Shown: one piece after another, positions 10,993-25,215 of the stretch
Position numbering within the stretch: the first letter of the stretch is position 1
How the letters are laid out: every line of letters starts with the position of its first letter
NCBI GenBank assembly: GCA_001664005.1
Contig: CP016093.1
Coordinates: 2,425,001-2,489,000, forward strand
Length of the DNA stretch: 64,000 nt
Origin: Rhizobiales bacterium NRL2
GTDB taxonomy: Bacteria > Pseudomonadota > Alphaproteobacteria > Minwuiales > Minwuiaceae
Direction: 5' to 3'
Translations under genes and position numbers: made by a program
The notes under the pieces: model-generated
Told to the model about the DNA's origin: nothing
Database searches by the model: none
Seen by the model: the letters and a program-made list of their open reading frames with translations, nothing else

Positions 10993-13545
10993 TCAGCGCG
11001 CGCCGATCACCCGCGCAGGCACGCCGGCGGCCAGCGCATAGGGCGGGATCGTGCCCGTCACGGTGGATCGCGCCGAGATCACCGCGCCATTGCCGATCTT
11101 CGCGCCGGGCGTGACCAGCACGCTGGAGGCCAGCCAGACGTCGGCGCCGATCAGCACCGGTTCATGCCGGTAGCCCTGGCGCATGATGGGCTCGCGCCCG
11201 CGATAGTTGTGCTCGGAAGCGATGATGGTGCAATGGCCGGCGGTCGCGGTGTCGCGGCCGATGGTGACGTTCTCGCCGGCGTTGATGATCGACGAGAAGG
11301 CGATCTGGGCGCGGTCACCGAGGCGGATCTCGGCGTCGTTCGCGGCCACCAGCCGGGCCATGGTGTCGATGGCGCAGCCATCACCGATGGTGATTTTCCC
11401 GTTCTCGCGCACCTTCAGATCGGCCCACGGCATGATCGTGACCCCGTCGCCGATGGTCAGATTGCGCGGATTTGCCTCGAGCCGGAGCAGGATCGGGCCC
11501 AGCACACGGAGGCCCCGGCCGTGGCGGACGCCGAGAGTCCGGAAGCGGAAGCGGTAGTACCAGGTCCAGAAGCCAGCGCGCTTTGACGACAGTGCCACGG
11601 GTCCGTCCGCACGCATCGGGACGTCTTCTGCGTTGAAGTCGAGGCCGGCTTCTTCGCCGCCGCCGCCGTCTTTCAGGCGCTCGACGGTCGCTGCGATGGC
11701 GGCGATCGTGTCGAGGGCGTCCGGGTCGGCGGCCACGCTCTCGGGCAGGCGGATGTCGAAGGCGCGCTCGATCTCGAGGACGAGGTTCACGATGGAGAAG
11801 CTGTCGATCCGGCCCGAACGGATGAGCGCATCATGATCGTCCGCCCGGCCCGCCGTCAGGATCTGGCCGTTCACGATCTGGCGCACGCGCTCCAGCGTCG
11901 TGGCGGGCGCGATCTGCGGCGCCGTGGGCCTGGTGGCGAATTCCGCGCGGTAGCGTTCCAGATTGGCGCCGCGGGCCAGCTTGCCGGAGGTCGATTTCCT
12001 GAGCCAGCGGGGCGGCACGATATGAACGGCGCGCGGGCTGACCTCGGTGGCGGCGGCGACCGTGGCGCGTACGGCTTCCGACAGGCCCGCCCATTCGGCT
12101 TCGGGGCGGTCGCTTTCGGCGAGCACCAGCAGATGCTGCGTGCCGGCGGCGTCGTCGGCCTCGCCGAGCGCGACGCTCCGGCCCGGCGTGATCCCGTGCA
12201 CGCCTTCGGCCAACGCCTCGATATCATGGGGGTAGATGTTCTTGCCGCCGATGATGATCAGGTCGCGCTTGCGGCCGGTGACGTAGAGATGGCCGTCTTT
12301 CAGGAAACCGAGATCGCCGCTGAGATACCGGCCGCCGTTCAGCGCCTCTGCGGTCGCATCCGGATTGTCGTCGTATTCGCGGAAGAGCGAGGGCGAGTGA
12401 ATCTCGATCTCGCCCGTCGCGCCGTCGGACAGGATCTCGCCGTCATCGCCCAGAATGCGGACCTCGGTGCCTGGCAACACGGCGCCGGACGAGACCAGCC
12501 TTCGGCCGTCCTGTTCGACGACCCGCAGCGGGTCGCCGAAGCCGCCCGACGTGACCGCGTAGGTCGCTTCAGCCATGGCGTAGGAAGCGGCCAGCGCATC
12601 CTCGCGGAAGCCGTGGGCGCGGAAGCGTTCGAGGAAGGCGTCGTGAGCGGCCGCGGTGACCGGCTCGGAACAGTTGACCACGCCACGCAGGCTCGACAGG
12701 TCCCAGCCGCCTGCAGGCGCGTTCCTGGCCATGAAGGCATAGGCGAAATTGGGCAGCCAGCCGAGCGTGCCCTTGTGCCTTGTCACCGCGTCAAGCCACA
12801 TGCCGGGCCGCTGCACCCAGTCGAACGGCGAGATTGCCACCAGCCGGCAGCGGCGGATCAGCGGCAGGAAGAAGCACGCGATCAGTCCCATGTCGTGATA
12901 GAGCGGCAGCCAGGAGACGATGGTGTCGCGCTCGTCGGCGCCGATGGTCTCGCCATAGGCCCGGATCTGCCAGAGCAGGGCGCGGTGGCTGATGACGACG
13001 CCCTTCTTCAACCCCGTCGTGCCCGACGAATACTGCAGAAAGGCGGGGTCGTCAGGGGAAGGAGCGGGCGCGGGATAGTCGCGGCGGTCGCTATCGAGAT
13101 CGCCGGGCGTCGCCAGATGCTCGAAGCTACCGATCCTGTTCACCAGCGGCGCGAGTTTCGGCGCAAGCTCCTCATAGGTGATCAGCGCCCTGGCGCGGCT
13201 GCCGGTGAGCAGCGTACCGATGGTCTCGAAATAGACGGCTTCCGAGAGCTTGGGCGAGGGGTGGGCGAACATCGAAGGGACCGCGCCCAGCAGCAGCGCG
13301 CCGATATAGGCGGCGTAGAGGTCGACACCATGGCGCAGGATCACGACAACGCGGTCGCCCTGAACCATGCCGCGGCCCGCGAGATGTGCCGCCCAGCATT
13401 CGGCCCGGTTCAGCAGTTCGGAATAGGTGAAGGCGCGTTCGCGCCCGTCCGCCTCGATCAGCGTCAGGAACGGGCGCCCGTCCTCGCGCAGCCGGTTGGC
13501 GGCGAGCACGCCCTGGATGGTGTCCTCAGTCCAGGGGGCGTTCAT
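10993..13545 (-). CDS. Trifunctional acyl-AMP ligase / acyl carrier protein / left-handed beta-helix acyltransferase
   Basis: 850 aa, three domains in one chain. Residues ~1-545 form an adenylate-forming ligase of the fatty acyl-AMP ligase type: YSSGTTGLKKG (172-182), SYAMAEATY (321-329), TGRKRD (423-428) and the late lysine K522 in STSGK. Residues ~550-625 are a carrier protein with the phosphopantetheine serine S582 in GRIDSFSIV. Residues ~693-850 are a hexapeptide-repeat (LbH) acyltransferase with H779-N780 in SEHNYRG and a typical AAGVPARVIG end. Inference: an acid is activated as acyl-AMP, loaded on the ACP and passed to a sugar. It is the last gene of the sugar operon; its ATG overlaps the 114-aa gene by 20 bp. 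Confidence 0.85.
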   Translation of the reverse strand: MNAPWTEDTIQGVLAANRLREDGRPFLTLIEADGRERAFTYSELLNRAECWAAHLAGRGMVQGDRVVVILRHGVDLYAAYIGALLLGAVPSMFAHPSPKLSEAVYFETIGTLLTGSRARALITYEELAPKLAPLVNRIGSFEHLATPGDLDSDRRDYPAPAPSPDDPAFLQYSSGTTGLKKGVVISHRALLWQIRAYGETIGADERDTIVSWLPLYHDMGLIACFFLPLIRRCRLVAISPFDWVQRPGMWLDAVTRHKGTLGWLPNFAYAFMARNAPAGGWDLSSLRGVVNCSEPVTAAAHDAFLERFRAHGFREDALAASYAMAEATYAVTSGGFGDPLRVVEQDGRRLVSSGAVLPGTEVRILGDDGEILSDGATGEIEIHSPSLFREYDDNPDATAEALNGGRYLSGDLGFLKDGHLYVTGRKRDLIIIGGKNIYPHDIEALAEGVHGITPGRSVALGEADDAAGTQHLLVLAESDRPEAEWAGLSEAVRATVAAATEVSPRAVHIVPPRWLRKSTSGKLARGANLERYRAEFATRPTAPQIAPATTLERVRQIVNGQILTAGRADDHDALIRSGRIDSFSIVNLVLEIERAFDIRLPESVAADPDALDTIAAIAATVERLKDGGGGEEAGLDFNAEDVPMRADGPVALSSKRAGFWTWYYRFRFRTLGVRHGRGLRVLGPILLRLEANPRNLTIGDGVTIMPWADLKVRENGKITIGDGCAIDTMARLVAANDAEIRLGDRAQIAFSSIINAGENVTIGRDTATAGHCTIIASEHNYRGREPIMRQGYRHEPVLIGADVWLASSVLVTPGAKIGNGAVISARSTVTGTIPPYALAAGVPARVIGAR

Positions 13546-13870
13546 CGAGCCACTCCAGCACGCTCTGGCGTTCCGCGGCGCAATAGCGATCGAAATCCGC
13601 CATGCGGTCGCTGTCGACGACCATGACATAGACCTGCCCGCGCGCATTGCGGACCAGGGCTGTCTTGAAGCCTTCCGATTTCAGCCGGCCGTTCACGGAC
13701 GGTGTGGCGTAGAAGCCGAAATCCTTGGCGGCGACATCCATGCGCTTCCCGGTTTCGGTGACCAGCGTGACCTGTTCGTCCGGCCGCAGCTCGACGTCGC
13801 CGCAGTCGCTGATGGTGATGCCGGGCGCAGGTTCGAACACACGCGGGGGATTCCTTTCCGCCAGCCTCAT
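13526..13870 (-). CDS. Small conserved-looking protein of the sugar operon (unknown function)
   Basis: 114 aa. Not recognised. It is predicted beta-rich in the first 85 residues with a short helical end, has an acidic ISDCGDVELRPDEQ segment and a striking KDFGFYATPSVNGRLKSEGF block (50-69), and has no membrane segment or catalytic signature. Its ATG overlaps the stop of the sugar amidotransferase gene (ATGA) and its own end overlaps the ligase-ACP gene by 20 bp, so it is translationally coupled on both sides. That coupling suggests it works with the amidotransferase or the acyltransferase, for example as an adaptor or a small subunit. Confidence 0.7.
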   Translation of the reverse strand: MRLAERNPPRVFEPAPGITISDCGDVELRPDEQVTLVTETGKRMDVAAKDFGFYATPSVNGRLKSEGFKTALVRNARGQVYVMVVDSDRMADFDRYCAAERQSVLEWLDERPLD

Positions 13871-15018
13871 GCGGCGCGCTCCATCGGCACAGCCGGCCAG
13901 TTCCAGTTCTCGATGGGGAAACCCTCGATCACCCGGCGACCGTCGTGGACCGACCAGATGCCGTGATCGCGGAACTTCTCCTCCAGCGCGGCGAACTCGG
14001 CCGCCGAGAGCCCCATGAACTCGGAGGCGCGGGCGATGTCGGCGTCGGGCCGCTGATCGCCCAGCCGCGCGATTGTGGCCAGCGCCTCCTCGCGGCTCAT
14101 CCGGCCATTGCGGATCTCCAGCGCCAAGTTGTCGAACAGCCGCGTGAAGCCGAACTTGGGCCACTTGAACCAGTGGTGGACGGAGATGAAGTCGCAGTCG
14201 ATGTCGGCATAGTCGTAGAGGCCGATCTTGGGGCCCTCGGGGCGGCGGCGGAAGCCGTTGGCCTCGGCGACGCGCAGGCTCTCGGCGGGATCCCACTGCA
14301 GATAGTAGCCCATGAAGATGGAGCGGACCTGCGCCCGCTGGAATTCTTCCTCGGTCGGCGGGCAGTAGGCCTCCAGCTCGGCGGCGCTCAGCTCGTCGCC
14401 GGCCCAGTCCAGCGCCTCCCGGCCCTGCAGGATGCCGTGCCGCTTCAGCCAGGCGTGGTTCAGAAGGTCCAGGTCGCTGTCGCCCTTATGCCCGCCATAC
14501 TCCATGAACGGGCTCTCGCCCCAGACGATCAGCGGCACGCGTATCTGCACGGCGATCCGCATGGGAATGGCGAAGATGGCGAGGTGCATCGGCACGGCGC
14601 TGGACCCGGTCTCCATCAGCGTCTTCTTCATGAAGCGCGCCTCGACGGACGGATCGATCGAGAAATCGATGTGGTCGACGCCGAGCGCCACCAACCGGTC
14701 CAGGTTGGCCTGTCCCAGGGCGTTGCGGCCCGGCGAGCGCCAGGTCACGGCAAGCACCTTCATGCCCATCTCGAGACACTTCGCGACCTGCCAGAAGCTG
14801 TCCTTGCCGCCGGAAACGGGGACGATGCAGTCATAGGGCGCCTTGCGCGCCTTCGCGCTGCCGAAGAGCCGTTCCAGGGCCTGGCCGCGTCCGGCCCAGT
14901 CGATGGTCAGCCGGTTGTCGCTGTGGCCCTTGCAGGCATTGCAGACCCCGTCGGTGCCGATCTCGATGCCGGGACGGCTGTCGGGCAGGACGCAGCTCTG
15001 ACAGAAACGGACGCTCAT
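13867..15018 (-). CDS. N-acetyl sugar amidotransferase (WbpG/PseA family)
   Basis: 383 aa. N-terminal zinc-type pairs CQSC (C6, C9) and CNAC (C26, C29) are followed by an N-type ATP pyrophosphatase loop PVSGGKDSFW (67-76). This matches the family that turns an acetamido group into an acetamidino group on surface sugars, using ammonia and ATP (WbpG in Pseudomonas O-antigen, PseA in Campylobacter pseudaminate). ATG at 15018 is chosen over 15024 because GGAG is 8 nt away and it overlaps the asnB stop as ATGA. WbpG normally takes ammonia from HisH/HisF; neither is here, while an AsnB-type glutaminase gene is directly coupled upstream. Confidence 0.88.
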   Translation of the reverse strand: MSVRFCQSCVLPDSRPGIEIGTDGVCNACKGHSDNRLTIDWAGRGQALERLFGSAKARKAPYDCIVPVSGGKDSFWQVAKCLEMGMKVLAVTWRSPGRNALGQANLDRLVALGVDHIDFSIDPSVEARFMKKTLMETGSSAVPMHLAIFAIPMRIAVQIRVPLIVWGESPFMEYGGHKGDSDLDLLNHAWLKRHGILQGREALDWAGDELSAAELEAYCPPTEEEFQRAQVRSIFMGYYLQWDPAESLRVAEANGFRRRPEGPKIGLYDYADIDCDFISVHHWFKWPKFGFTRLFDNLALEIRNGRMSREEALATIARLGDQRPDADIARASEFMGLSAAEFAALEEKFRDHGIWSVHDGRRVIEGFPIENWNWPAVPMERAA

Positions 15019-16838
15019 GCCCATTGCTCCATGAACAGCTTGGCGGAGACGAAGGAGAAGAGGAACTTCGAAAAGCTGTTGGGCAGCTCCGCACGGCCCA
15101 TGGCTTCCTCGATCTTCTCCCGGCGGACAATGTCGAAGATTGGGCCGTCGTCCAGGATGCGCTCGCGAGTCTTCGGGTTGTCGAGATCGAAGAGGCTGCG
15201 GAAGGCGGCATTGAAGCCCTTCTTGTGCCGGTCCAGACGCACCGTGTCGTTGAGCACGCCCTTCGCTGCCTCGCGCAGCGGCGCCTTGGCGTAGCCGTCG
15301 CGGATCAGGTGCTCGGGCGGAATGGTGTAGGCGAAGTCGCAGAGGGCGCGGTCCAGATAGGGGCTCCGGTTCTCGATCGAGGAGCGCATCGAATTGAGAT
15401 CGTCTTCGCGGACGATGATCGGCACTGCCTCGACGCAGAGCTCGTTCAGCATGCGGTTGCGCAGCAGGTCGCCGGAGAGCCGTTCCTCGGTGAAGTCCTC
15501 CCGGAAGGGCTCGGTCAGATAGTCCGAGAAGACGTCCGCATTGAGGTAGATGTGGCCACGGAAGTCCGGGTCGTCGTCGTAGAGTCCGGGGTTCTGCAGG
15601 TGCGGGTTACGCACGATGGGCGCGAGATGCGTCTGCCAGTCCTGCAGCCGCGCCGCGCGGTCGGGGTGATTGCGTATGGCGTGCAGGTGCAGGTTGAAGT
15701 GGTCGTAATAGCCGGTGACCAGTTCGTCCGCGCCGGTGCCGGAGACGGCGACCTTGAAGCCCTGCTCCCGCATCGCTTCCGACAGCAGGCTGTGGACGTA
15801 ATAGGACGCGGTGGCCACGGGCTTGCCGTGATAACCGACGAGATCGGCGAAGCGGTCGAGGTCCGACGATTGCGTCAGGCGAATCTCGTGGTGGCGGCAG
15901 CCCAGGTCGTCCACGGTGGCGCGGATGTTGTCGCTCTCGTCGTAGCGGGGATCGGGATCGATGATGGAGAACGCCACGACGTCCGCGCCGTGATGCTTCG
16001 CCGCGAAGGAGGCCAGCGCCGCGCTGTCGACGCCGCCCGACAGGCAGAACGCGATGGGCACGTCGGCGCGGAGCCTGAGGCGCATGCTCTCCGAGAGGTG
16101 ATGGCGTACGCCCTCGACGGCTTCCGTGAAGCTCATGGCGGCTTCGGGCGCGTAGCGGGGCCGCCAGTAGCGGGTGATCTCGACATCGCCATTGCCGCCG
16201 ACGGTGAGATTGCAGCCGGGCGGCAGCTCCTTCACCCCGCGGTGGAACAGGGCGTCGGACTTGTAGAGGGACTTGTAGCCGTTCACCAGGAAGCGGCGCA
16301 CGGTCTCCTGCTCGACCTCGGGCCGCTCGCCGCTCAGCGCCGCCAGGCAGGCGATTTCGGAGGCGAAGTGGAAACCGTCGGGGCCATTGCGCCAGAGCAG
16401 GGGCTTTTCGCCGAACGGGTCGCGGGAGAGGAACAGCCGGTGGCGATCGGCGTCATGGATAGCGAAGGCCCACATGCCTTCCAGCCGGTCGACGCAGCTG
16501 TCGCCCCAGTGACGATACGCCTCCAGCAGCACCTCGGTGTCGGAACGCGTGGCGAAGCGCGCGCCCTGCGCCTCCAGTTCCCGGCGCAGTTCCACGTGAT
16601 TGTAGATCTCGCCATTGAAAACGAGGGTCAGATCGCCACGGCGGAAGGGCTGATTGGAGCGGCGGTCCAGATCGATGATGGCGAGCCGGGTGTGCAGCAG
16701 CGTGACCGCAGCGGCGCCTTCATGGGTCTGGAACAGCCCGCGCGCGTCCGGGCCGCGCCGGTGCAGGGCGCGGAAGGCCGCCTGGAGGCGCGGCGGTGGC
16801 AGCGCGACCGGGCCGATATGTCCGGCGATGCCGCACAT
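15015..16838 (-). CDS. asnB: Glutamine-hydrolysing asparagine synthase-family protein
   Basis: 607 aa, a full two-domain AsnB. The N-terminal glutaminase has the cleaved-Met nucleophile Cys (MCGIAGHIG), RLAIIDL (51-57), FNGEIYNH (74-81) and RSDTEVLL (98-105). The synthase half has the PP-loop CLSGGVDSAA (265-274). AsnB-like proteins in surface-polysaccharide clusters often amidate sugars or supply ammonia rather than make asparagine. Here the gene is 6 bp from the synthase gene upstream and shares an ATGA with the sugar amidotransferase downstream, so a role in amidine formation is the best guess; ordinary asparagine synthesis cannot be excluded. Confidence 0.9.
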   Translation of the reverse strand: MCGIAGHIGPVALPPPRLQAAFRALHRRGPDARGLFQTHEGAAAVTLLHTRLAIIDLDRRSNQPFRRGDLTLVFNGEIYNHVELRRELEAQGARFATRSDTEVLLEAYRHWGDSCVDRLEGMWAFAIHDADRHRLFLSRDPFGEKPLLWRNGPDGFHFASEIACLAALSGERPEVEQETVRRFLVNGYKSLYKSDALFHRGVKELPPGCNLTVGGNGDVEITRYWRPRYAPEAAMSFTEAVEGVRHHLSESMRLRLRADVPIAFCLSGGVDSAALASFAAKHHGADVVAFSIIDPDPRYDESDNIRATVDDLGCRHHEIRLTQSSDLDRFADLVGYHGKPVATASYYVHSLLSEAMREQGFKVAVSGTGADELVTGYYDHFNLHLHAIRNHPDRAARLQDWQTHLAPIVRNPHLQNPGLYDDDPDFRGHIYLNADVFSDYLTEPFREDFTEERLSGDLLRNRMLNELCVEAVPIIVREDDLNSMRSSIENRSPYLDRALCDFAYTIPPEHLIRDGYAKAPLREAAKGVLNDTVRLDRHKKGFNAAFRSLFDLDNPKTRERILDDGPIFDIVRREKIEEAMGRAELPNSFSKFLFSFVSAKLFMEQWA

Positions 16839-16844
16839 CGGCGG

Positions 16845-17858
16845 TCAGGCCAGCAGATCGGGCGCGAAGCGCTGGCCCGTGGCCATGGCCGCGGTCAGCG
16901 TGCGGCCGATGACGCGGTCTTCCTCGCCGGGCGCGAATCCGTCGCCGGGACGGACCCAGATCAGGTCGTCCTCGCCGATGACATGGCCGGGGTGGAGCGG
17001 GCTTTTCGCGGCGATGGAGCGCCTGATGAGCGGCGCGGCGTCGCGCTCGCAATCGGCCATGGCGACGCGGCCGTCGCCAAGCAGGGTCTCGGTCAGGCGG
17101 ATGCGGTCCATCAGCGCCTTCATTTCCGCGGGGTCGGCGGAGAGCTGGTGGTCGCGGAAGTCGGAATGGTCATGCGCGATGGTGAAATGCTTCTCGACGA
17201 TGCGCGCGCCGATGGCAACGGCGACGACCGCTGCGTCGATACCCTGGGTATGGTCGGAATAGCCCACGGCGCAATCGGGCAGGGCGGCCTGCATGGCGGC
17301 GACAGCCCGGACATTGGCCGCATCGGGCGGGGTCGGATAGGCGGAGACGCAGTGCAGCACGCCCAGGCCGGGCGCCACCCCACGGTCGGCCCAGAGGCCG
17401 TGAATCCTGTCCGCGGCCTGCCGAACCAGCGCCATGTCGGCAAGGCCGGTAGAGAAGATCGTGGGCATCTCCCGGCCGGCGACGAAATCGATCAGCGGCC
17501 AGAAATTGTTGTCGGAACTGGCGATCTTGAAGGCGTCGACATGGCCGTCGAGGAAGGCGGCGCTTTCCATGTCCAGCGGCGTCGAGATGAAGGCAAGGCC
17601 CTCGGCCCGCGCCAGCTCGCCCAGCTCGGCGAACTGGTCGTAGCTCAGCTCGAAGCCCTTCAGGCGCTGGAAACGGACGGCGTCCTCGGCCGCGATGAAC
17701 TGCTCCGTGCGGAAGGTCTGGAACTTGACGGCGTCGACGCCGGCGTCGGCGGCGAGATGGACCATCTCCTTCGCCAGGCCGAAATCGCCCTCGTGGTTGT
17801 TGCCGATCTCGGCGATGACGAAGGCGCGCTGGTCGGTGTCGTGGCTGGCGATCCGCAT
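16845..17858 (-). CDS. NeuB/SpsE-family nonulosonate (sialic acid-type) synthase
   Basis: 337 aa from the ATG at 17858. The N-terminal TIM barrel has the family signature AEIGNNHEGD (16-25) and VKFQTF (44-49), with later GYSDHT and EKHF metal and substrate motifs. The C-terminal ~60 residues (RRSIAAKSPLHPGH... onward) form the antifreeze-like SAF domain. These enzymes condense phosphoenolpyruvate with a 6-carbon amino sugar to give a 9-carbon nonulosonate such as Neu5Ac, legionaminic or pseudaminic acid. Which sugar is used cannot be read from sequence. It sits between the GNAT and asnB genes with gaps of 4 and 6 bp. Confidence 0.92.
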   Translation of the reverse strand: MRIASHDTDQRAFVIAEIGNNHEGDFGLAKEMVHLAADAGVDAVKFQTFRTEQFIAAEDAVRFQRLKGFELSYDQFAELGELARAEGLAFISTPLDMESAAFLDGHVDAFKIASSDNNFWPLIDFVAGREMPTIFSTGLADMALVRQAADRIHGLWADRGVAPGLGVLHCVSAYPTPPDAANVRAVAAMQAALPDCAVGYSDHTQGIDAAVVAVAIGARIVEKHFTIAHDHSDFRDHQLSADPAEMKALMDRIRLTETLLGDGRVAMADCERDAAPLIRRSIAAKSPLHPGHVIGEDDLIWVRPGDGFAPGEEDRVIGRTLTAAMATGQRFAPDLLA

Positions 17859-17862
17859 GGCT

Positions 17863-18561
17863 CTACCCGTGATAATGGAAAACGTAGGTGGCGGAGATGA
17901 TCCGGAACTTGTCGCGGCTGTAGGCGTGCAGGGCCCGCGCATTGGCGGCCTGGGTGCCGACCTTCACGCGGCCGAGATCCGGGATGGTCGATTCGGCGAA
18001 GGCCAGCATGTCGGAAGCCAGGCCGCGGCCGCGGAAGCGGCTGTTGACGGCCACCAGGTCGATGACCAGCAGGTCGCCCTGCTGGAAAAGCTGCAGGAAG
18101 CCGGCGATCTCGCCGTCGATCTCCGAGACGACCATGTGGTCGCCGCGCTTGCCGTCGAAATAGTTGCCCGCCCAGGCCCGCTTGATCCGGTCGGCCGTCG
18201 AACGCGGGATGAGCGGATCCATGTGGAAGCGGGAATAGGTGAAGGCGCTCTCGGCCAGCCGTTCCACGGCCGCCCGGTCCTCGGGCAGGGCGAAGCGCCC
18301 GGTGCGGCTGCGGGCCACCGGCCAGGCCGGCCGCTCGAGCTGCAGATTGGTGTCGACCAGACGGAATCCGGCATTCTCCACGCGGCCCACGGTTTCCACG
18401 TCGTTGGCCGGCGCCTTGGCGTCGACAAAGCAGGGACCGTCGCCGGGCAATGGCACGCGATCGAGTTCCCGGCCGGTCGGCGTCAGGTGCCAGGCCGGTT
18501 TCCCGATCATCTCGCTCAGCCATGAATCGGGCTGCAGCGCCATTGCCGGGGCGTCGTTCAT
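17863..18561 (-). CDS. GNAT-family N-acetyltransferase (amino-sugar acetyltransferase, WecD/PseH-like)
   Basis: 232 aa. The acetyl-CoA site is RFRGRGLASDML in the second half, followed by VGTQAANARALHAYSRDKF, the usual motif B. The middle segment SRFHMDPLIPRSTADRIKRAW resembles the dTDP-fucosamine acetyltransferase WecD, and PseH of pseudaminate synthesis plays the same role. It probably acetylates the amine put on by the DegT aminotransferase. The ATG at 18561 overlaps the stop of the SDR gene as ATGA. Confidence 0.85.
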   Translation of the reverse strand: MNDAPAMALQPDSWLSEMIGKPAWHLTPTGRELDRVPLPGDGPCFVDAKAPANDVETVGRVENAGFRLVDTNLQLERPAWPVARSRTGRFALPEDRAAVERLAESAFTYSRFHMDPLIPRSTADRIKRAWAGNYFDGKRGDHMVVSEIDGEIAGFLQLFQQGDLLVIDLVAVNSRFRGRGLASDMLAFAESTIPDLGRVKVGTQAANARALHAYSRDKFRIISATYVFHYHG

Positions 18562-19649
18562 GCCCAGGCGCGGCGGGTCAGATAGACGACCTGGCCGGCG
18601 TCGACACCGCCCTGGTTGAGCTGGTCCCAGTTCGCCTTGTACCAGTCGATGTAGTCGACGAAGCCCCGCTCCAGCGGATATTGAGGATCGTAGCCGATCA
18701 GCGAGCGCGCCTTGTCGACATTCAGCGTGCCGCGTTCCGGCATCAGGCTGTCACGCGGGTTGTGCTTCACGTCGATGCCCGGGAAGTGCTGGCGGATGAT
18801 GTCGACCATCTGGTTGAGCGAGCGCGCGTCGCCATAGGTCAGGTTGAAGATCTCGTTGGCCGCGTCCTTCGAGGTCAGCGCGCCCATGACCCCGCCGATC
18901 AGGTCCTGGACATAGGTGAAGTCCAGGCAGTCGGAGCCGTCGCCGTTGATGGTCAGCGTGTTGCCGCGCAGCGCGTTCTCGATCAGCGCCTGACCGACGC
19001 GGCGGCTGACGCAGCGCTCGCCATAGAGCGCAGAGGGGCGGATGATGGTGAAGGGCAGTCCGAAGACCTGATTGTAGGCGATCACCATCTTCTCGCCCGC
19101 GAACTTCAGCGCGCCGTAGATGCCGAGCGGGTTGCACGAGGTTTCCTCGTCGACCACGCCGTCGGCGAAGGTGCCGTAGACCATCGACGAGGAGAAGTAG
19201 ACGAAGCGGTCGACGTTCAGCCGCGAGGAGCGGGCCACGTCGAGGGCGTTCTCGAGCGTGCGCAGCGAATGGTCGAATGTGGAGTAGGGATCCTTGTTGG
19301 AGCGGTTGGCGTGCGCCACCGCGGCCAGGTGGACGATGGCGTCCGGGTTCAGGTCCTCCATCGTCTCCGACAGGCCATGATAGTCGCGGGCGTCCATCTC
19401 CACGAAAGGCACGCGCGCCTCGTGCAGCAGGTTCATGCGCTGCTTGATGAAGTTGAGATAGATCTCGCCGTTGGGGTTCGTGTACCGCTCGCGCTCGATG
19501 GCGTAGTAGTTGTTGACGCCCAGACTGTCGACGACGGCGACGTCGACGCCGGCCTGCTTCATGGTCAGCGCCATGTTGTGGCCGATGAAGCCGGCGCCGC
19601 CGATGATGACGACCTTGCGCCCCTTCAGGGGATGATCAGTTGCAGACAT
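18558..19649 (-). CDS. NAD-dependent sugar epimerase/dehydratase (extended SDR)
   Basis: 363 aa. The Rossmann motif is IIGGAGFIGH (15-24), the catalytic pair is Y178 and K182 in IYGALK, and the serines lie in YFSSSMVYG (151-159). The NDP-sugar site GDGSDCLDFTYVQD in the C-terminal half fits an NDP-hexose 4-epimerase or 4,6-dehydratase. It lacks the PseB-type sequence, so it is not an obvious pseudaminate dehydratase. Its ATG at 19649 overlaps the end of the aminotransferase gene by 14 bp. Confidence 0.88.
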   Translation of the reverse strand: MSATDHPLKGRKVVIIGGAGFIGHNMALTMKQAGVDVAVVDSLGVNNYYAIERERYTNPNGEIYLNFIKQRMNLLHEARVPFVEMDARDYHGLSETMEDLNPDAIVHLAAVAHANRSNKDPYSTFDHSLRTLENALDVARSSRLNVDRFVYFSSSMVYGTFADGVVDEETSCNPLGIYGALKFAGEKMVIAYNQVFGLPFTIIRPSALYGERCVSRRVGQALIENALRGNTLTINGDGSDCLDFTYVQDLIGGVMGALTSKDAANEIFNLTYGDARSLNQMVDIIRQHFPGIDVKHNPRDSLMPERGTLNVDKARSLIGYDPQYPLERGFVDYIDWYKANWDQLNQGGVDAGQVVYLTRRAWA

Positions 19650-20871
19650 CGTGGATCGCCCTCTTCATCGCTTGCGTAATTCGGTCCATGTCGTCCTCGT
19701 CCAGGTGCGGCCCGACCGGCAGCGCGATCGACTGGCGGCTGATGCGGGTCGCGTGGGGGAAGTCCTCGGCCTTCAGGCCGTACTTGTCGCGGTAGTAGCC
19801 GAGCGCCGGGACAGGGCCGGGGTAGTAGACGGAGCTGCCGACGCCCTGCGCCTTCAGCGCCTTCACGATCTCCGAACGGCGGCCCTCGGCCGGCCCCTTC
19901 AGGATCACGCTCAGGCAGTAGTGGCTGCTTTCCAGGCCGTCATGGCTGGAGCGCAGGAGATCGAGTTCACCGATTTCCTTCAGCCCCGTCTCGAGACGCC
20001 AGTAGTTGCGGTGGCGCGCGGCGAGGAAGCCCTCGAGACGCTTGATCTGCTCGATGCCGATGGCCGCCTGGAGCTCGTTCATGCGGTAGTTGAAGCCGAG
20101 CTGGGTGACGTCATAGACGCCGGGCTCGGCGCGTTCGACCACCGTGCGGTCCAGGCCGAAGGCCTTCTGGCGGCGGATGCGCTCGGCGATGGCGGCGTCG
20201 CGGGTCAGCACCATGCCGCCCTCGGCCGTGGTCATGTGCTTGACGGGATAGAAGGAGAAGCAGCCGAGGTCGCCCAGCAGGCCCGCGTGGATGCCGTCGA
20301 CAGTGGAGCCGATGGCGAGCGCCGCGTCCTCGATGACCGGCAGGCCGTGCTTCGCCGCGATCGCGTTCAGGCGGCGCATGTCGACCGGCATGCCGAGATA
20401 GTGCACCACCGAGATCGCCTTGGTGCGGTCGTTTATGGCAGCTTCGATCTGATCCAGGTCGGCGTTGCCCGTGACCGGCTCGGCGTCGACGAAGACCGGT
20501 TTCGCGCCGACATATTCGACTGCATGGGCCGTGGCGGTGTGGGTCTGGGCGGGCACGATCACCTCGTCGCCTTCACCGAGACCCATCTGGAAATAGGCGA
20601 GATGCAGGCCGGCGGTGCAGGAGGAGACGCTTATCGCCTCGCCGCCGCCGCACCAGGCGGCAAAATCGTTTTCGAAGGCGACGGCGCGGGGCCCGTGAAC
20701 GAGTTGCGGGCTGTCGAGCACTTCGAGCACCGCGCGGCGCTCCTCGTCGCCCAGGATCGGGCGGCCGAAGTGGATTTCCTTCGGTTCAGAAGTAACGGAC
20801 GGGCTCCGCGCGTCCGCTGTGGACGGCGCGTTCGATGGCGAAGCAGACGGCGAGGGCGCTGAATATCCCAT
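19636..20871 (-). CDS. DegT/DnrJ/EryC1/StrS sugar aminotransferase
   Basis: 411 aa. It has the family PLP features: VSSCTAGLHLA (82-92), EDAALAIGS (181-189) and FSFYPVKHMTTAEGGM with the cofactor lysine K211. It puts an amino group on a keto-sugar nucleotide. The start is unusual. No ATG, GTG or TTG exists between the Gfo/Idh stop and the conserved IHFGRPILGDEE region, and the ATG at 20871 lies 86 bp inside the upstream gene. That ATG has a near-perfect GGAGG 9 nt upstream, so the Ser/Pro/Ala-rich first ~30 residues, a product of overlapping frames, appear to be translated. Confidence 0.9.
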   Translation of the reverse strand: MGYSAPSPSASPSNAPSTADARSPSVTSEPKEIHFGRPILGDEERRAVLEVLDSPQLVHGPRAVAFENDFAAWCGGGEAISVSSCTAGLHLAYFQMGLGEGDEVIVPAQTHTATAHAVEYVGAKPVFVDAEPVTGNADLDQIEAAINDRTKAISVVHYLGMPVDMRRLNAIAAKHGLPVIEDAALAIGSTVDGIHAGLLGDLGCFSFYPVKHMTTAEGGMVLTRDAAIAERIRRQKAFGLDRTVVERAEPGVYDVTQLGFNYRMNELQAAIGIEQIKRLEGFLAARHRNYWRLETGLKEIGELDLLRSSHDGLESSHYCLSVILKGPAEGRRSEIVKALKAQGVGSSVYYPGPVPALGYYRDKYGLKAEDFPHATRISRQSIALPVGPHLDEDDMDRITQAMKRAIHDVCN

Positions 20872-21793
20872 CGACGCCTACCTCCGGCTCACGGTCTTCG
20901 ATGACCGCGTCCACGAAATCGTGCAGAAGATCGCCCTTGTCGACACCGGGATAAGCCTCCGTGATCGCCTCCGGCTCCATGCCGGGATCACGGGAACGGT
21001 AAACAAACGCGCTTTCCAAACGGTTAACGAAGCTGGCCGCGGTGCCGTAGACCTCCAGCTTGTGGAAGTGGGGCTTCACGCAGCCGCCATTGCAGCCGAT
21101 CTTGGCCACCATGCCGCTCTCGAAGCGCACGATCGCCTGGACCAGATCGTGATTGGCGAAGCCGCTGTCGCGGGTGGCGATCCGGTTGCCATAGGCCTGG
21201 ACCTCCACGGCGCGGTCGCCGGTCAGCCAGAGCACGAGGTCGATCATGTGCACCGCGCCGCCCAGCACCAGCGAGTAGCCCGGCAGTTCGCCGCGCCAGC
21301 CGCCCAGCAGCTTGTGGATACGGCCGTACTGGTAGTCGGCGTCGATATGGAATATCTCGCCGAAGCGGCCTTCCTCGATCTCCGCCTTCAGCCAGCGGAA
21401 GCGGGGGCAACGGCGCAGGATCAGGTTCGACGACAGCTTCAGATGCGGCTTCTCGCGCAGCTTGTCGCGGACGATGCGGGCATGATCCTCGCGCAGGACG
21501 ACCGGCTTTTCGACGAAGACATGCTTGCCGGCGTCGAGGGCGCGGACGACCTGCTCGAAATGATGCTGGTCGTAGCTGGCGATGGAGACGATGGCGATTT
21601 CCGGATCGTCCAGAACCGCATCCGCATCCGCCGAGATCGGCCGGTCGGGATGGCGGCTGGCGACGTCGGCGCGCTTGTCGGGGCAGAAGTCGGCGAGGCG
21701 GGTCACGCGGCAGCCCGGATGGCGTTCATAGCCCGCGATGTGGCGTTCGCCGACGCCGAGGCCGATCACGCCCGCGGCGATCGGGGCGGTCAT
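20786..21793 (-). CDS. Gfo/Idh/MocA-family NAD(P)-dependent oxidoreductase
   Basis: 335 aa. The Rossmann motif is IGLGVGERH (10-18) and the catalytic loop is VEKPVV (94-99). The C-terminal sheet domain has GGAVHMIDLVLWL with the usual His. In sugar clusters such enzymes oxidise C3 or another hydroxyl of a nucleotide sugar to a ketone for a DegT aminotransferase, as WbpB does before WbpE; that pairing is suggested by the direct gene overlap (86 bp). The ATG at 21793 overlaps the stop of the cytidylyltransferase gene (ATGA). Confidence 0.88.
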   Translation of the reverse strand: MTAPIAAGVIGLGVGERHIAGYERHPGCRVTRLADFCPDKRADVASRHPDRPISADADAVLDDPEIAIVSIASYDQHHFEQVVRALDAGKHVFVEKPVVLREDHARIVRDKLREKPHLKLSSNLILRRCPRFRWLKAEIEEGRFGEIFHIDADYQYGRIHKLLGGWRGELPGYSLVLGGAVHMIDLVLWLTGDRAVEVQAYGNRIATRDSGFANHDLVQAIVRFESGMVAKIGCNGGCVKPHFHKLEVYGTAASFVNRLESAFVYRSRDPGMEPEAITEAYPGVDKGDLLHDFVDAVIEDREPEVGVDGIFSALAVCFAIERAVHSGRAEPVRYF

Positions 21794-22482
21794 GCGCTGC
21801 GCTCTTCCAGTTTCGGCGCCAGTTCGTGCCAATGATAGCGCCAGGCGGGGGCGGAGAGCTCGCGCGCCACCTGCCGGAAACGCTGGAACTCCTCCTCGGT
21901 GTCGATGACCATCGACGTCGCGCTCGCGTCGGTCTCCGCGCGGATGGAGACGATGCGATAGCCCGACTCGGGGCGATAGAACCACGGCGTCACGTGCTCG
22001 CGGTCCGCAGGATCATGCATGCGGCTCTCGGCGCCGAGGAAGATGGCGCTGTCGATGACCTCGATGGACTGCCCCTTGGGGAATGTGCGCTCGACGACAT
22101 TGGACACGAGGTCCGGCCGTTCAGCGCGGAACAGTTCCACAGCGCGGTCGACGATGCGGTAGTCGATCAGCGGGCTGTCGCCGGAGATACGCACGAAGGC
22201 GCGGACGGGAAAGCGTTCCAGGACGCAGCGGAAGCGGCCGGCCACGTCCAGCAGGGGGCCGCGGATCACCGGTGTCCCGCGCGCGGTGCAGTGGGCGGCG
22301 AGCGCATCGTCCAGGGGATCGTCGGACGTCGCCACGATCAGCGGACGGGCGCTGCGGCAGCGTTCCAGCGCGTCGAGGGTGTAGTCGATCAGCCGACGGC
22401 CGGCCACCGCGCGCATCACCTTGGCGGGACAACGTTGCGAGCCCGTGCGCGCCTGTACGATAACCGGGATCAGGTCCTGCAT
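21790..22482 (-). CDS. SpsF-type cytidylyltransferase (sugar-nucleotide transferase)
   Basis: 230 aa from the ATG at 22482. It opens with PVIVQARTGSQRCPAKVM, the nucleotide-binding signature of the SpsF/CMP-KDO synthetase fold, followed by ISGDSPLID, where an acidic residue binds the metal. SpsF and SpsE (NeuB-like) are a known pair in spore-coat sugar clusters, and here too the NeuB-like gene is in the same operon. It is the only candidate in the window for making the CMP-activated donor sugar. The activity is inferred from family and context. Confidence 0.85.
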   Translation of the reverse strand: MQDLIPVIVQARTGSQRCPAKVMRAVAGRRLIDYTLDALERCRSARPLIVATSDDPLDDALAAHCTARGTPVIRGPLLDVAGRFRCVLERFPVRAFVRISGDSPLIDYRIVDRAVELFRAERPDLVSNVVERTFPKGQSIEVIDSAIFLGAESRMHDPADREHVTPWFYRPESGYRIVSIRAETDASATSMVIDTEEEFQRFRQVARELSAPAWRYHWHELAPKLEERSA

Positions 22483-22489
22483 CGTCGTC

Positions 22490-24262
22490 TCAGTCCAGTT
22501 CCAACCTCTCGCCGGCCCGCCTGCGGGCCGCGGCGCAGGGCACGGCGGGCCATTCATCGGGCCGGTCGGCGACGAAGATATCCGTGGTCGGGAACCAGGG
22601 CTCGACGCCGGCGCCGAAATGGAAGCGGTCGTGCTTGTGCAGCAGGGTGATCGCAGGAATTTGCATCGCGCCGGCGATGGCCACCGGCGAGGAGGAAATC
22701 GAAACCATGTAGTCGAGGGCGGCGGTATAGGCGGCCGCCTCGTCGAGCTGGTCACGGCGGTCGATATCGTCCCAGTCGTGCAGGATGACACCCTTCTCGT
22801 CGGCCAGGCGGCGGCAGTCCTCGCGCGCGTCCTTGTACATGCAGTTCACGAAATGGCCGCCCTTCTGCTGCAGGTCGAAGAAGGGCTGGAAGTCCATCAG
22901 TGACATGTAGCCCTTGGCGCGGATCGGCGTGATGAAACCGCCGGACCAGCAGATGCCGATCTTCGGGCCGTCGCCGATGGCGTCGAAACGGGAGCGCCAG
23001 AACGCCACCCGTTCCGGGTCGGGCTTCAGGTAGGCGCCGTTGCGGGCGAAGCTGGCGACATCGCCGCGCACGAGCTGGAAGATCGAGCCGGAGGGGATGA
23101 ACAGGTCCGGCTGCGGCACGCCGTCTTCCCGCAGCCAGCCATAGTGGCGGTGGATCTTGGCGTTGGAGCGGAAGGTGACGTGGCGGTGCACCGTCGCGTC
23201 GGGGAAGGAGCGCTGGAACCAGGTCACAAGACGCCGGTCGCACTCGATGATGACGTGGCCGGCGCGTTCGATGACGTCCTGATAGGCGCTGGCGAAGATG
23301 ATGGCGTCGCCGATGCCCTGTTCATCGCAGATCAGGATGGTCTTGTCGGAAATGTCCTCGCCCTGCCAGCGGGGCAGGTCGTGGACGAAGACGACCGAAT
23401 CCTTGCGCCGCCGGTCCAGGCGCCATTCGTATTCGGCCCAGCCCTTTTCGAGGTCGCCGACACCGAGCAGGGAGGAAGCGTAGGAGAACCGCGTGTCGGC
23501 GTCGTCGGGGCGGAGCGCCACCGATTTCTCCAGGAAGGGCAGGGACTCCGCGAACCGTCCCTCGGCGGAATAGGCGTGGCCCATGTTCGACCAGGCGAGG
23601 TCGTAGTCGGGATTGAGCCGGAGTGACTCCTCGAAGAACGGCCGCGCATGATCGGCGCCCCGCGCTTCAGCCACCGTGACGCCCAACGCCTGCCAGAGCG
23701 TGTAGTCCTGCTGCGACTGCTCGATGGCGAATTTCAGTGTGTCGATGGCCAGGTCGTACTCGCCCTTGCCGCGCTTGACGGCGGCCAGCGCCGTATGGCC
23801 GCGGGGGTCGTCGGGGTTGCGCTGGATGACCATGGCGTACATGCGCTCGGCAGCGTCCAGCATGCCCAGGTCCTGGGCCAGCAGGCCGATCCCGTACAAC
23901 AGCTCCAGATCCTCGCCCGCGGCCTTCAGGGCCTTCTCCATGACGTGGATCGCGGCCTGGACGTTGCCGGCATGGCGCAGGTTGTTGCCCAGCACCAGCA
24001 ACGTGTCGGCGTTGTGCGGGTCCAGCCGGTGGGCCTGCAGCAGTTCGGCCGAGGCCTCCACGAACTTGTTCATGTGTGACAGCTTGCCGGCCTTGGCGAG
24101 ATGCTGGATCGCGCGTTTCAGCTCCGCCCTGGTCGGCGTGCGGTCGTCATCGACGCGGGCGATCGCGTCCAGGATCTGGATCGTGTCGCCCTGCATGATG
24201 GTCCGGCCGACCTTGGGGCCTTGCAGCGGTTCGGACTTGGTCAGATGGGCGTGTCGGGCCAT
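22490..24262 (-). CDS. TPR-domain glycosyltransferase, FlmG-like flagellin glycosyltransferase candidate
   Basis: 590 aa. Residues ~40-270 contain about six tetratricopeptide repeats (for example NADTLLVLGNNLRHAGN and DLAWSNMGHAYSAEGRF). Residues ~290-570 form a GT-B-like C-terminal half with CDEQGIGDAIIFAS and KIGICWSGG, and SISSSPVAIAGAM near the end, as in heptosyltransferase-like domains. This size and layout match FlmG of Caulobacter, which binds flagellins through its TPRs and adds pseudaminic acid. It is the first gene of the sugar operon and is divergent from flbT. Orthology is inference from architecture and place. The start at 24262 is not marked by a strong ribosome-binding site; 24196 is an alternative. 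Confidence 0.8.
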   Translation of the reverse strand: MARHAHLTKSEPLQGPKVGRTIMQGDTIQILDAIARVDDDRTPTRAELKRAIQHLAKAGKLSHMNKFVEASAELLQAHRLDPHNADTLLVLGNNLRHAGNVQAAIHVMEKALKAAGEDLELLYGIGLLAQDLGMLDAAERMYAMVIQRNPDDPRGHTALAAVKRGKGEYDLAIDTLKFAIEQSQQDYTLWQALGVTVAEARGADHARPFFEESLRLNPDYDLAWSNMGHAYSAEGRFAESLPFLEKSVALRPDDADTRFSYASSLLGVGDLEKGWAEYEWRLDRRRKDSVVFVHDLPRWQGEDISDKTILICDEQGIGDAIIFASAYQDVIERAGHVIIECDRRLVTWFQRSFPDATVHRHVTFRSNAKIHRHYGWLREDGVPQPDLFIPSGSIFQLVRGDVASFARNGAYLKPDPERVAFWRSRFDAIGDGPKIGICWSGGFITPIRAKGYMSLMDFQPFFDLQQKGGHFVNCMYKDAREDCRRLADEKGVILHDWDDIDRRDQLDEAAAYTAALDYMVSISSSPVAIAGAMQIPAITLLHKHDRFHFGAGVEPWFPTTDIFVADRPDEWPAVPCAAARRRAGERLELD

Positions 24263-24317: not shown

Positions 24318-24331
24318 TAAAATTGTTTGAA
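24317..24331. promoter_or_regulatory. CtrA-like box TTAA-N7-TGAA
   Basis: TTAAAATTGTTTGAA has one mismatch to TTAA-N7-TTAA. It is nearer the glycosyltransferase gene (55 bp from its start) and abuts the palindrome at 24306. A possible site for CtrA, which controls flagellar genes in this class; binding is inference. Confidence 0.35.
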
Positions 24332-24359
24332 GCATGACTTCTCTCGGAGCTGTTCGGCG

Positions 24360-24374
24360 TTAACGATAAATCAA
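24360..24374. promoter_or_regulatory. CtrA-like box TTAA-N7-TCAA
   Basis: TTAACGATAAATCAA, followed by CC, has one mismatch to the CtrA consensus. It lies in the middle of the 208-bp gap between the glycosyltransferase operon and flbT, 97 bp before flbT. With the box at 24317 it makes two candidate CtrA sites in one divergent flagellar promoter region. The rest of the gap shows no other clear element. Confidence 0.4.
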
Positions 24375-24470
24375 CCGCGCCCGCGCAGATTCCGCATCGA
24401 TGGCCGTGCCCGCGGCCGTCATGGATGTTCAACTGTCTCGGGAGGGCCGGGCGACCGGCCGGATCGCAAC

Positions 24471-24875
24471 ATGGCGCTGAAACTCACCCTCAAGCCTGGC
24501 GAGAAATTCGTCATCAACGGCGCCGTCATCGCCAATGGCGACCGCCGCGCGACGCTCGTCCTGCACAACAAGGCGTCGATCCTGCGGGAGAAGGACATCC
24601 TGAAGCCCGAGCGCGTCGACACGCCGGCGAAGCGAATCTACTTCGCCATCATGTCGATGTATCTCGACGAAAAGGTCCGGCCGCGGTTCTACGAAGAATT
24701 CGTCTTGCGCATGTCGGAGTTCATGGGGGTCGTCACGGATGCTGACGCCCTGGCGAATTGTGTCGCCATCAGCCAGTGCGTGATGGACCGTCAGTACTAC
24801 AAGGGTCTGACGCTGTGCCGCCGCCTGCTCGACTTCGAAAGAGAGAGACTGAGCTATGAGCCTGCGAGCGTATAG
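24471..24875 (+). CDS. flbT: Flagellar biosynthesis repressor FlbT
   Basis: 134 aa from the ATG at 24471. It begins with the family signature MALKLTLKPGEKFVINGAVI, followed by HNKASILREKDIL and YLDEKVRPRFYEEFV, all typical of FlbT. FlbT binds the 5' leader of flagellin mRNA and controls its stability and translation when flagellar assembly is incomplete. It overlaps flaF by 20 bp, the usual arrangement in Alphaproteobacteria, and is divergent from the TPR-glycosyltransferase. No flagellin gene is in the window. Confidence 0.95.
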   Translation: MALKLTLKPGEKFVINGAVIANGDRRATLVLHNKASILREKDILKPERVDTPAKRIYFAIMSMYLDEKVRPRFYEEFVLRMSEFMGVVTDADALANCVAISQCVMDRQYYKGLTLCRRLLDFERERLSYEPASV

Positions 24876-25215
24876 CAATGCGCAGCGTGTCGTGGAGACG
24901 CCGCGCGATACCGAATACCGCCTGTTCGCCGAGATCACGCGGCGGCTGATCGAGGTCAAGGACCTGCCCCGTCATGACAATGGCGTCATCGAGGCGATCC
25001 ACCGCAACAAGCGGCTGTGGTCGACCCTGATGGCGGATTGCTCCCGGGACGGCAACTCGCTGCCGGAATCCACCCGCGCCTCGATCATCTCGCTGGCGCT
25101 GTGGGTGGACCGTCATTCCAGCGCCGTGATGCGCGGCCAGGAAAGCGTCGACGACCTCGTGGCGGTGAACCGGACCATCATGGAAGGTCTGGCGCAGCGG
25201 CCCGCCGCCGCCTGA
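24856..25215 (+). CDS. flaF: Flagellar biosynthesis regulator FlaF
   Basis: 119 aa, the normal length. It starts with AYSNAQRVVETPRDTEYRLF, continues with NKRLWSTLMADC and ends with LVAVNRTIMEGL, the FlaF pattern. FlaF is a secretion chaperone and activator of flagellin that opposes FlbT. Its ATG lies inside flbT. No obvious terminator follows before the GST gene, 63 bp downstream, which has its own strong ribosome-binding site. Confidence 0.94.
   Translation: MSLRAYSNAQRVVETPRDTEYRLFAEITRRLIEVKDLPRHDNGVIEAIHRNKRLWSTLMADCSRDGNSLPESTRASIISLALWVDRHSSAVMRGQESVDDLVAVNRTIMEGLAQRPAAA

Follow-up and report, generated by a model that had tools for sequence, protein, structure and literature searches.

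Architecture of the fusion gene and its operon

The window, a stretch of 64,000 nucleotides from Rhizobiales bacterium NRL2, carries on its reverse strand an 11-gene operon, the last gene of which encodes one protein comprised of an acyl-AMP ligase, an acyl carrier protein (ACP) and an LbH (hexapeptide) acyltransferase domain. Genes of nonulosonic acid synthesis precede it, and the flagellar genes flbT and flaF adjoin the other end of the operon. The features are as follows.

10993..13545 (-), FAAL-ACP-LbH fusion gene, 850 aa (translation and fused orthologues)
11926..13545 (-), FAAL domain, about residues 1-540, with the Lys522 codon at 11980-11982 (Pfam and solved relatives)
11656..11889 (-), ACP domain, about residues 553-630, with the Ser582 codon at 11800-11802 (PP-binding 21.0 bits; D581 and S582 invariant)
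10996..11580 (-), LbH (hexapeptide) acyltransferase domain, about residues 656-850, with the His779 codon at 11209-11211 (Pfam, solved relatives and alignment)
13526..13870 (-), small conserved ORF, 114 aa, with a 20-base overlap with the start of the fusion gene (no Pfam family at cut-off)
13867..15024 (-), WbuX-family N-acetyl sugar amidotransferase (TIGR03573 over cut-off)
15015..16838 (-), asparagine-synthase-type amidotransferase (TIGR01536 over cut-off)
16845..17867 (-), NeuB-family nonulosonic acid synthase (PF03102; start approximate, from orthologues)
17863..18561 (-), WecD-like GNAT N-acyltransferase (family matches)
18558..19649 (-), NAD-dependent sugar-nucleotide dehydratase/epimerase (family matches)
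19636..20871 (-), DegT aminotransferase, PseC-like (family matches)
20786..21784 (-), MocA-type oxidoreductase (family match; start approximate, from orthologues)
21790..22482 (-), cytidylyltransferase, CMP-sugar type (PF02348; start approximate, from orthologues)
22490..24262 (-), 590-aa TPR protein built like FlmG, its glycosyltransferase half putative (TPR families; weak Glyco_transf_9, E=0.041)
24327..24875 (+), flbT (PF07378, E=1.6e-43)
24856..25215 (+), flaF (PF07309, E=1.3e-33)

Translation of 10993-13545 (-) gives a stop-free chain of 850 residues with the N-terminus MNAPWTED; the mechanical ORF start lies upstream of the chosen start, at 13647, and the fused orthologues align from MNAPW. 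The frame is more than chance, as seen from its codon-position GC (0.67/0.52/0.86) and its recurrence in five same-genus genomes. Pfam places an AMP-binding domain at residues 31-391 (E=1.3e-62) and a hexapeptide repeat (Hexapep PF00132) at residues 797-831 (E=2.9e-9). The carrier domain gave no PP-binding match at E<=0.001 when the whole protein was scanned, and the C-terminal piece scanned alone gave 21.0 bits vs a cut-off of 20.8 (E=4e-4). The motifs are SSGTTG at residues 173-178, STSGK ending at Lys522, GRIDSFS at 578-584 with Ser582, and EHNYRG from residue 778, containing His779, which we take from the alignment to be the catalytic histidine. The 850-aa frame, the Pfam domains and the fused orthologues in five further genomes bear out the sequence-only reading that a single protein joins ligase, carrier and hexapeptide acyltransferase, and its numbering of Lys522 and Ser582 proved correct when the motif positions were re-derived from the translation. 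The structure model of the full-length protein (10 sequences) was of fair quality in the ligase but of poor quality in the LbH, and the LbH modelled alone (4 sequences) had a mean pLDDT of 46.5; the models thus lend no geometric support to ACP-to-LbH transfer, and nothing is drawn from domain geometry.

Six Minwuia-type alphaproteobacteria, that of the window and those with the five other fused-gene clusters, share one gene order: TPR protein, cytidylyltransferase, MocA, DegT, dehydratase, GNAT, NeuB, AsnB, WbuX, small ORF, fusion. In G005 and G008 part of the TPR gene lies outside the stretch read. Genes downstream of the fusion are alike in the window and G007 and different in the other clusters. 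At the opposite end, flbT-flaF adjoin the TPR gene divergently in the window, and flbT is found there in three of the five other stretches. Caulobacter FlmG is described in PMC7591256 as a 596-residue TPR-plus-glycosyltransferase protein that glycosylates flagellin. Of the features looked for in an FlmG-type locus, the window has NeuB, the cytidylyltransferase, the 590-aa TPR protein and flbT-flaF, while the glycosyltransferase half is weakly matched (E=0.041), and the C-terminal half of this TPR protein found no counterpart in the PDB; the window is thus a candidate for such a locus. Flagellin genes lie elsewhere in the source genome (four matches, three of them over cut-off).

In standard pathways NeuB would be preceded by a nucleotide-sugar hydrolase of PseG/NeuC type; no such enzyme is among the families listed for the scanned operon genes (16845-22482 (-)). 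The 114-aa ORF, which adjoins the WbuX gene in the window, recurs in each of the other five clusters with the fusion and in those of G098, G104 and G303, the G303 copy lying between two AsnB genes; this conserved protein may be a partner of the amidotransferases.

Ligase type, conserved residues and distribution of the fusion

On the basis of its sequence, the ligase domain is assigned to the fatty acyl-AMP ligase (FAAL) type. The solved structures nearest to it, by sequence and by fold, are FAALs, several of which carry bound long-chain acyl-adenylates. The CoA-blocking elements described for EcFAAL in PMC8460268 are W224, M231, F279 and the helix T252-R258. In our reading of the alignment the three residues correspond to W212, M219 and F267 of the fusion protein and are identical in all seven rows compared, and the helix corresponds, as sequence and in a gap-free alignment, to residues 240-246, with R246 replaced by Asn in three of the seven rows, as it is in Legionella FAAL. 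The FAAL-specific insertion region comprises 40 residues in four of the fused proteins, 43 in the relative at locus L048 and 25 in the window protein and G007, so that the last two have about 15 residues fewer than the four other fused proteins; as the shortening is common to two genomes, a sequencing error is unlikely. From the assignment to the FAAL type, acyl transfer to ACP with rejection of CoA is predicted.

Residues K522, D581 and S582 are kept in all seven rows, which represent the six fused proteins and L048 (41% identical); no homologue compared has thus lost Ser582 or the ligase lysine, the change that the sequence-only reading had named as refuting it. H779 is present in 5/5 rows reaching that site, as well as in the G005 piece past its gap and in a standalone LbH from the genome G303. 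Identity between the window protein and those of G003, G004 and G008 is 65-68% in the FAAL domain, 47-56% in the ACP, 36-40% in the ACP-LbH linker and 73-75% in the LbH. One PPTase-family gene was found in the source genome. No ketosynthase match lies within the window, and one has to go about 105 kb past the window edge to reach the nearest, which is partial; a polyketide role is therefore unlikely.

An order-level search covered nine genomes, seven of them of the window's genus. The fused gene is present in the window genome and in five further genomes of the same genus, with 63-91% identity. The G005 copy is broken by unrelated sequence together with a stretch of N, which we take to be a scaffold fault and not a real gene split. 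The seventh same-genus genome, G006, is uninformative on the presence of the fusion, as its sugar cluster is truncated on both sides by the ends of a contig of 3,460 bases. The two genomes of other genera of the family gave ligase-region matches only, among the matches listed. No three-domain match beyond the genus was found in 385 genomes of the class (E<=1e-40), a sample that includes the window genome and three same-genus genomes, or in 398 genomes of the phylum (E<=1e-60), which include the window genome; two first-look candidates were scored in most genomes of both samples, so that a three-domain case may have been missed in either. Matches covering 80% of the fusion protein were absent from 72,556 plasmid records and from 50,697 phage records. 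An 826-codon frame with an LbH in G189 was rejected as a fusion, since the 628 aa examined were without a ligase or ACP Pfam match and the part of the frame that precedes the LbH looks spurious. The earlier description of the fusion as unusual is therefore supported within this searched scope, where the LbH-fused form among the matches listed is confined to the same genus.

Relatives of the separate parts

Further sugar clusters, those with the most similar dehydratase, were read in G303, G098, G104, G059, G245 and G016; in a seventh such genome, G040, the contig is 4,763 bases long. Most of the core sugar genes recur in all six genomes, and the fusion is in none of the stretches read (0/6). 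An LbH is found in G303 alone, as a standalone protein of 228 aa that is 53% identical to that of the fusion and is encoded between an AsnB and a WbuX gene. The stretches read in G303 contain no FAAL-ACP match, though a small ACP gene standing by itself may have escaped notice, and no FAAL is listed for this genome at E<=1e-40 with 2 of 25 candidates scored, leaving room for one elsewhere in G303. The occurrence of most core genes in all six genomes, of the LbH in one and of the fusion in none suggests that a sugar-cluster LbH gained a ligase and an ACP, and makes the acyl-transfer part look like an optional decoration on a shared pathway. Two related sugar clusters hold an additional gene pair between core genes (L189:10951-12603 and L191:7083-8716), which by eye is formyltransferase-like and deacetylase-like.

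The LbH type is rare. Among 372 genomes of the class, four of the genus and G303 match at E<=1e-20, and in the profile search the next relative scored 87.8 bits vs 360.7 for G303, with at most 8 candidates scored per genome in both cases. The nearest solved relatives of the domain are acetyltransferases, e.g. galactoside O-acetyltransferase (E=5.8e-13). At the last-coil positions presumed to bind CoA, the residues of the fusion recur in 3/27 (A806), 3/27 (R826) and 7/27 (G831) of the comparison LbH rows, and the fused LbHs are not clearly set apart from the 27 other rows at these sites. The missing Lys of the VTK motif was dropped as an argument against CoA, as Gly stands there in 7/27 comparison rows (25 loci).

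The nearest FAAL-ACP halves are those of L057, L058, L092/L109 and L048 (G129, G356, G405 and a gammaproteobacterium), which are 39-47% identical. Of their ACPs, those of L058 and L109 score above the Pfam cut-off, and that of L057, at 12.3 bits, does not reach it. Past the ACP, a GDSL/SGNH domain follows in G405, the sequence in G129 and G356 matches no Pfam family at cut-off, and the L048 frame is cut by the contig end. No nonulosonic-acid genes lie in the stretches read around these relatives (G129, G356, G405 and L048). Other joined forms are ACP-FAAL-PlsC in L064 and FAAL-PlsC in L106. In a FAAL tree of 31 rows, from which L021 was left out as too short, the six LbH-fused proteins form one group (100/100), which nests with L057, L058, L092/L109 and L048 at 84/81, not a firm fork; the PlsC fusions lie apart. 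We infer from these comparisons that the FAAL-ACP unit was probably joined once to a sugar-cluster LbH, in an ancestor of this genus.

TPR proteins adjoin the FAAL-ACP relatives of G129 (L084:57-3801) and L048 (3074-3661). Proteins of about 820 aa at L098 and L103 have a different domain order, with the FAAL first, then a weak GDSL match and a weak ACP match at the end.

Putative route of acyl transfer and alternatives

The chain, by its sequence, has three domains, conserved catalytic residues, a ligase of FAAL type and a place in a sugar operon. The order ligase, ACP, acyltransferase suggests that an acyl-AMP, then an acyl-ACP and then an acylated sugar are formed. In such a route the FAAL domain would use ATP to convert a carboxylic acid, for which a short hydroxy acid and a fatty acid are candidates, to its acyl-AMP. 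The acyl group would then pass to the phosphopantetheine arm on Ser582 of the protein's own ACP, not to CoA. From this ACP the LbH, with His779 as the base, would hand it on to the putative product of the rest of the operon, either the nonulosonic acid or a nucleotide-linked precursor, which would be acylated on a hydroxyl or an amino group. The finished sugar would be attached to flagellin by the FlmG-like protein. That the fusion is in this way a self-loading acyltransferase, working from ligase through ACP and LbH to the sugar without free acyl-CoA, is the reading we prefer, at about even odds. Priming of the ACP, transfer in cis to the LbH, the acceptor, the acid and flagellin as the target are all inferred parts of the route. 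Several observations weigh against it: the G303 LbH without a FAAL in the stretches read, CoA-site residues that do not clearly distinguish the fused LbHs, the poor LbH models, the shortened insertion region of the window protein and G007, the single PPTase-family gene, and the weak glycosyltransferase match of the TPR protein. The sequence-only reading, which saw a self-contained device that activates an acid, holds it as a thioester and transfers it, presumably to the sugar, stands for the domains, their conservation, the rarity of the fusion and its setting, that is, a conserved chain of FAAL-type ligase, ACP serine and LbH placed in a nonulosonic-acid operon near flagellin-regulator genes; for its last step, from ACP through LbH to the sugar, the transfer is putative.

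The affinity of the LbH to solved acetyltransferases (galactoside O-acetyltransferase, E=5.8e-13) would fit a different arrangement, in which this domain is an ordinary acetyl-CoA sugar acetyltransferase, the FAAL-ACP feeds some other operon-encoded enzyme, e.g. the WecD-like GNAT, and the fusion does no more than keep the proteins together. The 53% identical LbH of G303, with no FAAL-ACP in the stretch read, points the same way, and LbHs of this type may draw on a different donor, perhaps acetyl-CoA. However, the GNAT is also present in the clusters of G098, G104, G245 and G303 without a FAAL in the stretch read and thus seems not to need one, whereas the FAAL-ACP is fused to the LbH, and never to the GNAT, in all six genomes, and FAAL-ACP or ACP-FAAL units are joined to domains of acyl-transfer type elsewhere. 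We consider a tethered acetyltransferase unlikely. It is less probable still that the same machine serves a target other than the nonulosonic acid, i.e. flagellin itself, a lipid or another envelope glycan. The FAAL-ACP relatives of G129, G356 and G405 do lack nonulosonic-acid genes in the stretches read, and the PlsC-type fusions presumably act on lipids, but the fusion ends a fixed 11-gene sugar operon in six genomes, with the genes beyond it differing between most of them, and a matching sugar cluster surrounds the most similar LbH from beyond the genus.

A further alternative concerns the acid only and overlaps with the self-loading reading: the ligase may activate a small, non-fatty acid (a hydroxy acid, an amino acid or acetate), giving a small acyl group. 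Nonulosonic acids are recorded in PMC6388019 with N-hydroxybutyryl, N-formyl, N-acetimidoyl and N-glyceroyl groups, which is consistent with a small acid, while the nearest solved relatives of the ligase are FAALs, several with long-chain acyl-adenylates bound, which speaks against it; a small acid is a serious possibility that we do not favor outright. Taking the self-loading reading further, we propose, with some hesitation, that FAAL-ACP is a portable acyl-loading cassette placed on various acyltransferases, LbH here and GDSL/SGNH or PlsC elsewhere, that would acylate sugars or lipids without acyl-CoA and in this genus would acylate a flagellar nonulosonic acid with a group other than acetyl.

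Galactoside and maltose O-acetyltransferases, which are matched by the LbH domain of the fusion among solved structures and share its fold, use acetyl-CoA and have neither ligase nor ACP. LpxA and LpxD are LbH acyltransferases that transfer an acyl group from ACP to a sugar nucleotide, drawing on free cellular ACP without a ligase; the proposed activity resembles theirs in an LbH with an ACP donor and a sugar-nucleotide acceptor and differs in that the fusion has its own ligase and its own ACP. The FAAL-ACP proteins of G129, G356, G405 and L048 share the FAAL-ACP order of the LbH fusion but have other C-terminal sequence. In the HapA and NocH didomains of natural-product pathways, as described in PMC11837247, a FAAL is likewise fused to its own ACP, on which the acid is loaded, but these proteins feed polyketide or peptide assembly, whereas the present fusion has an acyltransferase in the same chain and lies in a sugar operon. 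A FAAL fused to a lysophospholipid acyltransferase is on record in PMC8460268. The fusions of this kind at L064 and L106 also unite a ligase with an acyltransferase, to which L064 adds an ACP, but differ from the LbH fusion in the PlsC-kind acyltransferase, the N-terminal position of the ACP in L064 and the FAAL branch to which they belong. The same 2021 study (PMC8460268) places typical bacterial FAALs always in polyketide or peptide contexts, with a few odd fusions. A search of the open-licence literature for a FAAL or acyl-AMP ligase combined with a hexapeptide domain and an ACP found none; FAAL-ACP didomains and FAAL-acyltransferase fusions are known, but none that we came across includes an LbH or belongs to a sugar operon. 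A self-loading sugar acyltransferase would extend FAALs to sugar chemistry, and since one chain would then activate, carry and transfer the acyl group, a single purified protein would suffice to test such an acylation step.

A trio of ligase, carrier and acyltransferase in possibly split form is seen in G356, where the neighbors of a second FAAL (L086:302-3452) are a small ORF, ACP-like by eye, and an AAT-family (penicillin acyltransferase) protein.
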